Source: Microbacterium oleivorans (GTDB taxonomy: Bacteria > Actinomycetota > Actinomycetes > Actinomycetales > Microbacteriaceae). Taken from it: a stretch of DNA of 64,000 bases. The stretch covers positions 2,542,001-2,606,000 of the forward strand of contig NZ_CP058316.1 of assembly GCF_013389665.1 (NCBI RefSeq), in the 5' to 3' direction. Shown in pieces: positions 16,798 through 21,400 of this stretch. Made by a program: the position numbers and the translations under genes. The notes under the pieces are model-generated. The model ran no database searches, was not told the origin of the DNA, and saw nothing but the letters and a program-made list of their open reading frames with translations. Numbering within the stretch: position 1 is the first letter of the stretch; every line of letters begins with the position of its first letter.

Positions 16798-18150
16798 TCA
16801 GCGCTGGGTGCGGCGCGTCGCCGCATCCAGGCCCTGCGCCAGGTCGGCGATCAGGTCGCCGACGGTCTCGATGCCGATCGACAGGCGGATCAGGCCGTCG
16901 CCGATGCCGAGGCGTTCCCGCTCGGCCGCCGAGAACGACACGTGCGTGGTCGTCGCCGGATGCAGCGCCATCGATCGCACGTCGCCGATGTTGGTCATGC
17001 GGCTGAAGAGCTGCAGGGCGTCGAAGAACGCCTCGGCCCCCTCGCGGCCACCGCGGACGGTGAAGGCGAAGACCGAGCCGGCATGCCCGCCGAACCGGTC
17101 GCGGGAGATGTCGTGGAAGGGGTTGCCGGGCAGGCCCGCGAAGTCGACGCTCTCGACGGCGGGGTGGGTGTCGAGCCAGGAGGCGACCGCTGCCGCGTTC
17201 GCGAGGTGGCGCTCCATCCGCAGCGACAGCGTCTCGATACCCTGCTGGAGCAGGAAGGAGTTGACCGGCGACAGCGCCGCACCCAGATCGTTGACGATGC
17301 CGAAGCGCAGGTACGCCTCGAGGGCGCGGTCGCCGTAGGCCTCGACGAACGACGGCTTGCCCGGTGCGATCGGCGCGGTCAGGCCCGGGAACGGACGCGG
17401 CGAGCCCGCCCAGTCGAACCGCCCGCCGTCGACGATCGCACCCGACAGCGCCGCGCCGTGTCCGGAGAGGAACTTCGTCGACGAGTGGATGACGATGTCG
17501 GCGCCGAGCTCGAGCGGCCGGATGAGATACGGCGTCGCGACCGTGTTGTCGACCACGAGCGGGATGCCGTGACGCCGGGCGATCCGCGCGACGGCCGCGA
17601 CGTCGACGAGGTCGTTCTTGGGGTTGGGGATCGTCTCGACGAAGATCGCCCGGGTGTCGGGTCCGATCGTTCGTTCCCATTCCGCCTCGTCGCGGGAGTC
17701 GCGCACGTAGTCGCTGGCGACCCCCAGCCGCGCGAAGGTGCGGTCGAAGAGGATGCGGGTGCCGCTGTAGATGCTCGCCGTCGACACGATGCGCTCGCCC
17801 GCGCCGGCCAGCCCCAGCAGGACCGCGGTGATCGCCGCCTGACCCGAGCCCACCACGATGGCGCCGGAACCGCCCTCGAGCGAGGCGATGCGTCCCTCGG
17901 CGACCTGGTGGGTGGGGTTGAGGTTGCGCGAGTACAGGTGGCCCTCGTCGGCGCCGGTGAAGCGGGCCTCGGCCTGCGCGAACGAGTCGAACCGGTATCC
18001 CGCGGTCAGGTAGACCGGGGTGATGCGCGCGCCGTGGCCCGGCTCGTCGCGTTCCCCGGCGTGCACCTGACGGGTGTCGAACCCGAATCCGTCCCAGTCG
18101 TATCGGGGCGGCAGCGGCTCGGGTGCGTTTTCGGCGGGTCGCGGGGTCAC
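16798..18150 (-). CDS. O-acetylhomoserine aminocarboxypropyltransferase (MetY type)
   Basis: A protein of about 450 aa with GFDTRQVHAGE, YSRNLNPTHQVAEGRIA, GSGQAAITAVL and the PLP lysine in HSSTKFLSGHGAALSG. It makes homocysteine from O-acetylhomoserine and sulfide. On the minus strand TAGCCT (18162-18157) is 6 nt before GTG 18150, so I prefer this leaderless start to GTG 18156. It resembles the gene at 13781-15121 throughout, so the two are paralogs. The nitroreductase gene diverges from it. Confidence 0.9.
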   Translation of the reverse strand: MTPRPAENAPEPLPPRYDWDGFGFDTRQVHAGERDEPGHGARITPVYLTAGYRFDSFAQAEARFTGADEGHLYSRNLNPTHQVAEGRIASLEGGSGAIVVGSGQAAITAVLLGLAGAGERIVSTASIYSGTRILFDRTFARLGVASDYVRDSRDEAEWERTIGPDTRAIFVETIPNPKNDLVDVAAVARIARRHGIPLVVDNTVATPYLIRPLELGADIVIHSSTKFLSGHGAALSGAIVDGGRFDWAGSPRPFPGLTAPIAPGKPSFVEAYGDRALEAYLRFGIVNDLGAALSPVNSFLLQQGIETLSLRMERHLANAAAVASWLDTHPAVESVDFAGLPGNPFHDISRDRFGGHAGSVFAFTVRGGREGAEAFFDALQLFSRMTNIGDVRSMALHPATTTHVSFSAAERERLGIGDGLIRLSIGIETVGDLIADLAQGLDAATRRTQR

Positions 18151-18256
18151 GCTCACAGGCTAGGGGGCTGAGCCCGCCGCACGCCGTCGATGCGTCACAC
18201 GCCGACAGATTCGGGAGCTCGTGCCTACGATGGGCGTCGACCCGAGGAGGACCCGC

Positions 18257-19072
18257 GTGACGACGACGGATGATGACGGCTGGCTGCGCCGCTACGGTTC
18301 GGCGGCACCGGCACGACCGCTGCCGCGCAACGAGGTGCTGGAGCTGCTGTACCGCCACCGCTCGGTCCGGCGCTTCGGACCGGGGGAGGTGGACGACGCG
18401 ACGGTGACGGCCATCGTCGCCGCCGCGCAGTCGGCGTCGACGAGCTCGAACCTGCAGGCGTGGTCGGTCGTCGAGGTGCGCGACCCCGCGCGGCTCGACA
18501 CACTGGCGCACCTGGCCGGCGATCAGGACTTCATCCGTCGCGGCGCCGTCTTCCTGGTCTTCGTGGCCGATTGGGCGCGGGCGAGCGAACTCGCACGTCG
18601 GGTGGGCGAGCCGGCCGAGGCGGTGGACTACATCGAGAGCACGATCGTCGGTTTCGTCGACGCGGCGCTGGCCGCCCAGAACGCCGTCATCGCGGCGGAG
18701 TCGCTCGGTCTCGGAGCGGTGTACGTCGGCTCGGTCCGCAACAACCCGGAGCAGATCGCCGATGTGCTCGAGCTGCCCCCGGGCGCCTTTCCGGCCTTCG
18801 GCGTCGTGATCGGGCATCCCGACCCGGACGATCCGGCCGGCGTCAAGCCGCGGCTCCCGCAGACCGTCGTGCGGCACCGCGAGCGCTACCGGCTGCCGGA
18901 GGCCGACGAGATCGCGGTCTACGATGCCGCCGTCACCGCGTACTACGCCACGCAGGGCGAGCCGCGCGGGTGGCTCCGAGCGGCGATCGCGCGGGTACGG
19001 GATGCGGCGAGCCTGCACGGTCGTCACACGATGCGCGCCTCGCTCGAGCGCCGCGGGCTGCCGTCGCGCTGA
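18257..19072 (+). CDS. NfsA-like NADPH-dependent nitroreductase/flavin reductase
   Basis: A 271-aa nitroreductase-fold protein. The FMN phosphate site is seen in RHRSVRRFGPGEVD, followed by AAAQSASTSSNLQAWSVVEV and the central GLGAVYVGSVRNNP. The layout fits the NfsA/FRP group, which reduces FMN, nitro compounds or quinones with NADPH. GAGGAGG 6 nt before GTG 18257 decides the start. Its place beside sulfur genes makes a second source of reduced flavin for the monooxygenase possible, but this is only context. Confidence 0.88.
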   Translation: MTTTDDDGWLRRYGSAAPARPLPRNEVLELLYRHRSVRRFGPGEVDDATVTAIVAAAQSASTSSNLQAWSVVEVRDPARLDTLAHLAGDQDFIRRGAVFLVFVADWARASELARRVGEPAEAVDYIESTIVGFVDAALAAQNAVIAAESLGLGAVYVGSVRNNPEQIADVLELPPGAFPAFGVVIGHPDPDDPAGVKPRLPQTVVRHRERYRLPEADEIAVYDAAVTAYYATQGEPRGWLRAAIARVRDAASLHGRHTMRASLERRGLPSR

Positions 19073-19100
19073 CCGCACGGCGCCCGCCCGCCGGCGCCGC

Positions 19101-19135
19101 TCGACACCCGCGGGCGCGTCGCCTAAGGTGGACGC
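19101..19135 (+). promoter_or_regulatory. Promoter of the Cys-codon leader ORF
   Basis: TCGACA (19101-19106), a 17-nt spacer and TAAGGT (19124-19129) form a sigma-A-type promoter. Six nt separate the -10 from GTG 19136, so the transcript should begin at that codon and be leaderless. Confidence 0.7.
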
Positions 19136-19162
19136 GTGCAGACCTGTCGCTGTTGTCGCTGA
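19136..19162 (+). CDS. Leaderless Cys-rich leader peptide (attenuator ORF) of cbs-metB
   Basis: GTG 19136 opens an 8-codon ORF encoding MQTCRCCR with a stop at 19160-19162. Three of eight codons are cysteine (TGT), near the stop. It starts at the predicted transcription start. Short leaderless ORFs with clustered Cys codons are established in mycobacteria as cysteine-responsive attenuators of downstream sulfur genes. Here the downstream genes are a CBS-like PLP enzyme and cystathionine gamma-synthase, and a hairpin follows the stop directly. Ribosome stalling at the Cys codons when cysteinyl-tRNA is low would be the sensor. Confidence 0.65.
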   Translation: MQTCRCCR

Positions 19163-19176
19163 GTGCCCCTGGGCAC
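19163..19176 (+). promoter_or_regulatory. Hairpin directly after the leader ORF
   Basis: GTGCCC-CT-GGGCAC forms a perfect 6-bp stem immediately after the leader stop codon. A ribosome paused on the Cys codons would cover or disturb it. No T-run follows, so Rho-dependent or translational control is more likely than intrinsic termination. Confidence 0.5.
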
Positions 19177-19238
19177 CCCTTCGACGAACCCGACAGCACC
19201 CGCGTCTCTGAGCACGCGGACATTTTGAGGACACCCTC

Positions 19239-20245
<1,007 letters not shown>

Positions 20246-20249
<4 letters not shown>

Positions 20250-21400
20250 GCACCCACGATTCGGCACGCGGTCTCGCGAGCCTCGCCGTCCACGCCGGTC
20301 AGGAGTTCGATCCGACCACCGGAGCGGTGATCCCTCCGGTGCACTTCTCGACCACGTTCGCCCAGGACGGCATCGGCGGGCTGCGCGGCGGCTACGAGTA
20401 CGGCCGCTCGGGCAACCCGACCCGCACGGCACTGCAGACCCAGCTCGCCGCCCTCGAGGGTGGAGCCCACGGCTTCTCGTTCGCCTCCGGGCTCGCGGCC
20501 GAGGACGTGCTGCTGCGTGCCGCGCTCTCGCCGGGCGACGAGGTGCTGCTCGGCAACGACGTCTACGGCGGCACCCACCGTCTCATCGCGCGCGTGCTCG
20601 CACCGTGGGGCATCACCCTGCGCATCGTCGACATGAGCGACCTCGACGCGGTGCGCGCGGCCGTCGCCGAACGGGCTCCGCAGGTGCTGTGGGTCGAGAC
20701 GCCGTCGAACCCGCTGCTGCGCATCACCGACATCGCGGGCCTCGCGGCGATCGGGCACGAGGCGGGGGCGACCGTCGTCGTCGACAACACCTTCGCCACG
20801 CCCGCCCTGCAGCGTCCGCTCGGTCTCGGCGCGGACGTCGTCGTCCACTCGACGACGAAGTACCTCGGCGGGCACTCCGACGTGGTCGGCGGGGCGCTCG
20901 TGCTGGACGACGACGCGCTGGCCGAGAAGATCGGCTTCCTGCAGTTCGCGGCCGGGGCGGTGTCGGGACCGATGGACGCGTGGCTCACGACGCGCGGCAT
21001 CAAGACCCTCGACGTCCGGATGCAGCGGCACAGCGAGAACGCTGGCGCGATCGCGCAGTACCTCGCCGGGCACGAGCGGGTCGCGCGCGTTTTCTACCCG
21101 GGCCTGGCCTCCCACCCCGGGCACGAGCTCGCGGCCTCGCAGATGTCGCGTTTCGGCGGCATGCTGTCGCTGGCACTGGAATCGGGCGACGCGGCACGGC
21201 GCTTCGCCGAGTCGACGCGCCTGTTCCAGCTCGCCGAGTCGCTCGGTGGCGTGGAGTCGCTCGTGAACTACCCCGACGCCATGACCCACGCCTCGGTGCG
21301 TGGTACGGAGGCGGCGGTGCCGGTCGAGATCGTCCGGCTCTCGGTCGGGATCGAGTCGGTCGACGATCTGCTCGCCGACGTGGAGCAGGCGCTGCGCTGA
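20246..21400 (+). CDS. metB: Cystathionine gamma-synthase/lyase
   Basis: A 384-aa fold-type I PLP enzyme with PPVHFSTTFAQ, YEYGRSGNPTRTALQ, the PLP lysine in HSTTKYLGGHSDVVGG and ESLGGVESLVNYP. The length and motifs match actinobacterial MetB, whose members can act as gamma-synthase and as gamma-lyase. The ATG overlaps the stop of the CBS-like gene, so the two are translated together. With CBS it would form a reverse transsulfuration route; with an O-acyl-homoserine and cysteine it would run forward. The Cys leader ORF upstream should control both. Confidence 0.92.

Follow-up and report, generated by a model that had tools for sequence, protein, structure and literature searches.

A conserved cysteine-codon leader, predicted to be leaderless, upstream of cbs-metB in Microbacterium

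In the 64-kb stretch of Microbacterium DNA that was analysed (hereafter, the window), cbs and a metB-like gene follow a short ORF of eight codons, GTG-CAG-ACC-TGT-CGC-TGT-TGT-CGC-TGA. Its Cys codons (19145-19147, 19151-19153 and 19154-19156) are TGT in every case, and its stop codon occupies 19160-19162. As read from the sequence, TCGACA is followed by 17 nt, TAAGGT, 6 nt and the GTG at 19136. An earlier interpretation made from the letters of the window (the sequence-only reading) had described these promoter-like boxes, the 6-nt gap and the GTG ORF for MQTCRCCR with its three TGT codons, and all of them are in place, base for base. It had also announced cbs and then metB downstream, which is correct, at a distance of 77 nt, which is not: 76 nt separate the leader stop from the cbs GTG at 19239, and the SD lies within them. 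A hairpin directly after the stop, with arms GTGCCC (19163-19168) and GGGCAC (19171-19176), was part of the same reading. The hairpin (P3) exists, but it folds with 5 bp and a 4-nt loop instead of all six pairs, since six pairs would leave a loop of 2 nt. Coordinates are collected in Table 1.

Table 1. Features of the leader region and the genes behind it.
Feature	Position	Strand	Basis or remark
Possible -35, TCGACA	19101..19106	+	Sequence reading; weakly conserved in relatives
-10 element, TAAGGT	19124..19129	+	Sequence reading and spacing in relatives
Leader ORF, MQTCRCCR-stop	19136..19162	+	Predicted transcription start is the first base
Hairpin P3 (GTGCC..GGCAC), directly 3' of leader stop	19163..19176	+	Fold; many relatives have a hairpin here, its sequence varying
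Anti-Cys block, 3' strand of P2	19182..19195	+	Folds, alignment pair counting, shuffled-UTR test
Hairpin P4 (CCGCGT..ACGCGG), upstream of cbs SD	19200..19219	+	Folds and alignment pair counting
cbs SD region, GAGGA 19227-19231	19227..19238	+	Local pairing possible with CCTC 19235-19238
cbs, catalytic PALP domain only, without C-terminal CBS-domain module; no Cys residue	19239..20249	+	NCBIfam, Pfam
metB-like cystathionine gamma-synthase/lyase, 4-nt overlap with cbs; no Cys residue	20246..21400	+	NCBIfam

A strict sigma-70 scan of 18900-19400 gave no promoter; the spacing of the -10 element predicts a transcription start at or next to 19136. Nothing relevant was found by an Rfam scan of 18000-20500, where the one sub-threshold match was to a microRNA model (E 4.9) on the opposite strand, inside metB. 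ORFs of eight codons are missed by the usual gene finders, and the leader would escape them because of this size. When both strands of the 64 kb were searched for TAnnnT, 5-8 nt, and an ATG or GTG opening a frame of 4-12 aa that contains at least two Cys, the leader was the one match; 60 Markov-simulated windows (7.7 Mb, both strands) had none. Five neighbouring genes, cbs and metB included, contain no Cys codon in 2,459 codons, and over a set of seven genes the count is one.

The cbs product scores 490 bits against the NCBIfam cystathionine beta-synthase model, below its cut-off of 510, and covers model positions 3-323 of 457. The metB product reaches 627 bits with the cystathionine gamma-synthase model, above the cut-off of 513. 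According to Pfam, the CBS proteins of two relatives (454 and 458 aa) have the CBS domain besides PALP. An O-acetylhomoserine/serine sulfhydrylase-like gene (16798-18156, minus strand) adjoins, and three PLP-type sulfur enzymes are encoded within 5 kb.

Conservation was examined in 60 cbs upstream regions of the genus, made up of the best 40 by score and 20 lower-scoring ones, part of those listed. The protein search behind this sample matched 149 of 149 genus genomes, partly via the paralogue cysK. The leader was detected in 49 of the 60 regions, 48 by script and one (L084) by eye; the latter encodes MFPTCHCCL and has an odd -10. Eleven loci have no leader (L072-L078, L080, L082, L083 and L088). 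In these, TACCCT or TACGCT lies 6 nt before the cbs ATG, cbs itself looks leaderless, and CBS is longer (456-464 aa). Fuller stretches were taken for 20 long-CBS loci; one (L335) ends at its contig and was dropped. Of the remaining 19, with CBS of 455-484 aa, 18 lack a leader, and MQTCRCCR is present in one (L337). The exception, in a genome of the same genus (G084), has a cbs of 460 aa, CBS-domain-sized, and carries the same peptide as the window about 99 nt upstream. Its sequence suggests gain or exchange of the leader within a long-CBS lineage.

Named genomes were sampled through 80 loci, the best among 173 that had been confirmed. A leader was found by script in 67 loci, and a looser look added two: L131, with MSLTCRCCR and an odd -10, and L184 (Pseudoscardovia), with MMFNSSCCCR 256 nt before cbs. 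The 11 loci without leader are those of Kocuria, Brevibacterium and nine long CBS genes (seven from Arthrobacter, one from a Chloroflexi MAG and one from a record labelled Vibrio cholerae). This last record (L179, WNZI01000024.1) has an actinobacterial-looking cbs locus, and so does one labelled Planococcus (L164, JASDDH010000003.1), with an MLTCRCCR leader; both labels possibly reflect contamination or mislabelling. In three loci of named Microbacterium (L163, L166 and L168) a Cys leader is followed, from 3001, by a cbs frame as long as 742-771 aa. Pfam finds PALP plus Cys_Met_Meta_PP in L163 and L166, a natural cbs-metB fusion; L168 is placed with them by length only.

Both sets were pooled into 92 unique leader-plus-UTR sequences. 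In 91 of them a TAnnnT box ends 6 nt (69 leaders) or 7 nt (22 leaders) ahead of the start codon, a count that is partly built in because most leaders were chosen by a script requiring the box. The start is GTG in 89 and the stop TGA in 90 of the 92, and the UTR measures 67-100 nt (median 76). The -35 is poorly conserved: 41 of 91 leaders agree with TTGACA at four or more of the six positions. Leader length varies by whole codons, some additional in-frame codons adding Cys (RPCC forms), and start codon, frame and stop are kept; conservation of the frame rests partly on scripts that required an open frame and partly on the alignment read by eye. TGT accounts for 268 of the 290 leader Cys codons; over 65 named loci, cbs together with metB (where the latter was located) has 10 Cys codons in all, and 2 of these are TGT. 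As in the mycobacterial type, a cluster of Cys codons lies in a short ORF before sulfur genes. The sequence-only reading held that loss of the Cys codons in close relatives keeping the operon would refute it. That outcome was not observed: Microbacterium leaders detected before short CBS genes have two to five in-frame Cys codons. Searches for the CRCCR motif in DNA were of little use. In the genome to which the window belongs there are 13 matches, compared with 15 for a reversed control. With the stop included and one mismatch allowed, matches occur in 232 of 299 family genomes, more than for the reversed control, and the pattern is too unspecific to read.

In other genera of the Microbacteriaceae we examined 49 loci (29 best by score and 20 with low score or short frame, from 122 genomes with a match). 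Looser versions of a Cys leader are present in 14 and absent in 35. The 14 peptides, MFLSCCRH, MSQLCCRR, MSSSFTCCRCR and MITRLCCCCR among them, differ from those of the genus and end in a Cys run, nearly always followed by Arg or Leu; their -10 is less clear in several cases. On recount, a -10 lies directly before cbs in 0 of the 14 loci with leader versus 19 of the 35 without. A Fisher test using 18 of 35 gives p = 0.0006, which is only indicative because the rows are related. Farther away, 40 loci were taken from the other families of the class, each family represented by one or a few (204 genomes had a match), and no Cys leader was detected in them; one locus (L307) has a Cys-containing ORF with no promoter box. 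TAnnnT lies 4-9 nt before cbs in 25 of these 40 loci (L279-L318), where cbs itself looks leaderless.

In a quick tree built from 102 CBS rows, leader presence needs at least 10 changes and the CBS-domain module one, and independent leader contrasts on well-supported branches number four. Family loci have the leader in 6 of 9 cases with short CBS versus 7 of 39 with long CBS (p = 0.007; L254, which is broken, was left out). A rule by which the leader is gained when the module is lost was rejected: eight long CBS genes have a leader, and the single change of the module on the tree makes the link untestable as correlated evolution. On this evidence the leader appears to be labile in lineages other than the short-CBS clade. 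A tentative scenario, which we consider possible and no more, is that the leader took over the leaderless start of cbs in several Microbacteriaceae lineages and that cbs moved behind it with an SD. Sensing of supply by the ribosome would then replace, or join, allosteric control by the C-terminal CBS-domain module. Such capture may have occurred more than once.

The hairpin after the leader stop, to which the sequence-only reading drew attention, proved to be a common accompaniment of the leader; pairing between the Cys codons and CGACGA..CGACA (19182-19195) tells more. In the window, CGACGA (19182-19187) can pair with UUGUCG (19153-19158), and CGACA (19191-19195) with UGUCG (19145-19149). A recurrent plan appears in single folds: the Cys-codon strand UGUCG..UUGUCG pairs with CGACGA..CGACA in helix P2, which encloses P3, and P4 follows before the SD. 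In some clades a further helix, P1, joins leader codons 2-4 (CUGAC) with GUCAGGA at the SD. P1 was rejected for the window, where the pairing is absent. On average over 50 sequences, P1, P2 and P4 are present in the free RNA. When the codons are masked, P1 and P2 vanish by construction, and no clear conserved alternative pairing was seen in their place in these 50 sequences.

The best evidence on structure is that pairing between Cys codons and UTR recurs where the sequences differ. In an alignment-free comparison within the genus, Cys codons scored 0.79 with their own UTR and 0.62 with shuffled UTRs, and the own UTR exceeded the shuffled mean in 80 of 92 sequences. In other genera the values were 0.80 and 0.67 (12 of 14, p = 0.017). 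A four-helix model on a MAFFT alignment has 81.8% of cells paired, compared with 77.7% after shuffling and 33-40% when slid; both sides have changed in 13 of 23 pairs, and none of 500 shuffles reaches any of five measures, though relatedness of the sequences can inflate such pair counts. For P4 alone, 84.4% of cells are paired and both sides have changed in 4 of 6 pairs. RNAalifold, on the same alignment, gave no consensus at the helices; its three pairs, all at the cbs start, amount to -0.41 kcal/mol. The arms of P2 are nearly invariant, and pairing within the own species is no better than after swapping (12936 of 20000 permutations as good). For P1, own pairs have a weak advantage over random swaps in 50 sequences (495 of 20000 as good) and a clearer one in 92 (26 of 20000), where own pairs are better than other-class swaps in 56.

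Altogether, we interpret the leader as a ribosome-read, cysteine-responsive attenuator of the leaderless poly-Cys type, with a probability of about 0.8. The leader is real and conserved, and the sequence-only proposal of a leaderless Cys-codon leader of the mycobacterial kind acting on cbs-metB is strongly supported by that conservation. The leader is very probably a functional cysteine leader. Its anatomy, its conservation and the pairing potential of its Cys codons are observations; its translation, the stalling of ribosomes, the direction of the response, the coupling to Cys-tRNA charging and the control of cbs, last step included, are what we infer from them. RNA polymerase would start at or next to GTG 19136, and a ribosome would load directly on the 5' end. 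With charged Cys-tRNA available, the ribosome would pass TGT-CGC-TGT-TGT-CGC and leave at TGA; the freed Cys-codon strand would pair with the anti-Cys block (P2), yielding a compact P2/P3/P4 leader and low cbs-metB expression. If charged Cys-tRNA became scarce, the ribosome would stall on the Cys codons, P2 would not form and cbs-metB would be made, so that cysteine could be supplied by transsulfuration.

The physiology of the organism is consistent with such a circuit. Its genome (G000, 3.35 Mb in one contig) has no match to sulfite reductase (PF01077), found in 11 of 14 control genomes, nor to PAPS reductase (PF01507), found in 14 of 14. Judged by gene content, it probably does not assimilate sulfate. 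Because both matches are absent, cysteine is probably imported, or obtained from reduced sulfur or from methionine by transsulfuration, and given these likely sources a sensor of Cys charging on cbs-metB is sensible. Since they have almost no Cys codons, cbs and metB can be made during cysteine shortage. No Cys leader was found at cysK in the 14 loci looked at.

How the signal would reach cbs admits more than one explanation. Masking the Cys codons raises mean SD accessibility from 0.31 to 0.37 (p = 0.005), with increases above 0.2 in 9 of 50 sequences and decreases above 0.2 in 3. With the leader ORF shuffled, the SD is hidden to the same degree as with the real ORF (0.313). Over 92 leaders there is no consistent shift in the energy needed to open the cbs start region (p = 0.26): in the stalled state the start is easier by more than 0.5 in 37 and harder by more than 0.5 in 30. 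In the window the energy is 8.46 in the free and 9.54 in the stalled state, the wrong direction for unmasking, and the SD pairs locally with CCTC in both. Shuffled ORFs giving the same free value, opening energies without consistent change and a window SD paired in either state mean that folding does not demonstrate RBS unmasking, and no consistent RBS switch of the mycobacterial kind was found by folding. By analogy with mycobacteria, the last step would most likely be ribosome access to the cbs start. A translational output is placed first on two grounds: it is the one described for mycobacterial cases in PMC13236596, and P1 recurs across part of the genus.

The alternative that survives best keeps the same sensor with a transcriptional output, and we regard it as possible but rather unlikely. 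In the absence of cbs translation, Rho would load on the C-rich leader and terminate before or within cbs. In the UTR between leader stop and cbs, C exceeds G in all 50 sequences, with means of 0.48 for C and 0.24 for G, compared with 21 of 50 in a control stretch upstream of the promoter; this control is not another 5' UTR, however, and the bias may merely reflect an SD-bearing UTR. No terminator-like site, with U-tract or otherwise intrinsic, was found in 18900-19400, the element that a classical transcription attenuator would have there. Its absence is compatible with Rho, and so is the failure of folding to reveal a thermodynamic switch of the cbs start. Rho was proposed for such Cys leaders by Seliverstov et al. 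2005 (PMC1262725), who called the prediction weak. On the other side, a ribosome stalled at the extreme 5' end by itself leaves the UTR uncovered, and the mycobacterial cases, as noted, are described as translational.

Other readings do without a ribosome-read sensor. The conserved CTGTCGCTGTTGTCGC might be a helix strand of a structured RNA element, its reading frame incidental, as the Cys-codon block is conserved in nucleotides and pairs with the UTR. This is improbable: start, frame and stop are kept and length changes in whole codons (with the contribution of scripts and visual alignment mentioned above), and in other genera the sequences differ but continue to code for Cys runs directly ahead of the stop. 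Still less credible is an action of the peptide as such, perhaps as a Cys-rich micropeptide that binds metal or thiols; its three Cys among eight residues and a widely kept CRCC would suit this, but eight residues are few, the number and spacing of Cys vary, and TGT is chosen far above TGC. Chance is refuted by the conservation of the leader in the genus, in keeping with the lack of matches in simulated sequence.

If the attenuator reading is right, ribosome-read cysteine control extends from mycobacteria to Microbacterium and onto the route from methionine to cysteine, in an organism where the search for sulfate-reducing enzymes found none. With about a hundred leader variants from nature and relatives lacking the leader, direct tests of how such sensors work and how they arose become possible.

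Canestrari et al. reportedly described the leaderless polycysteine short ORFs of mycobacteria in 2020, with a translational action. PMC13236596, which cites that work, describes the mycobacterial cases as translational, and RBS unmasking is the output described for mycobacteria; a forerunner is the work of Shell et al. 2015 (PMC4633059). Seliverstov et al. 2005 (PMC1262725) predicted leader peptides with Cys codons in front of cbs in Bifidobacterium longum and of cys operons in Mycobacterium and Propionibacterium acnes. As a target of Cys leaders, cbs was thus already foreseen in Bifidobacterium in 2005. The idea of the sequence-only reading is in this respect only partly new; Microbacteriaceae are absent from that prediction as excerpted. 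None of the papers among the literature matches listed deals with such a leader in Microbacteriaceae. As far as the searched literature shows, the novelty lies in the wide presence in Microbacterium, the recurrence in other Microbacteriaceae, the anti-Cys block and the place at a gene that is often leaderless itself. Elsewhere, the Streptomyces lividans 'metL' leader before metNIQ contains CMCRRMC (PMC8079986, Table 4); going by that table, it may sense cysteine rather than methionine.

The trp and leu leaders are classical attenuators. With this class, exemplified by ilvB1 of M. tuberculosis in PMC13236596, the leader described here shares codons for the pathway product in the leader ORF and a codon strand that can pair downstream; it differs in its eight-codon, predicted leaderless ORF and in that no U-tract terminator was found. 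With the leaders in the accessible part of Seliverstov et al. 2005 (PMC1262725) it has in common a short ORF with Cys codons near the stop, located before cbs, with no terminator; the occurrence in Microbacteriaceae, the predicted leaderless start and the anti-Cys helix are, relative to that part, features found here only. The mycobacterial polycysteine ORFs belong to another family; here the target is cbs-metB, the UTR carries an anti-Cys block, and the peptide is a very short conserved (x)TCRCCR with Arg between Cys codons. Common to both are a predicted leaderless start, Cys codons near the stop and a position as first cistron before sulfur genes.
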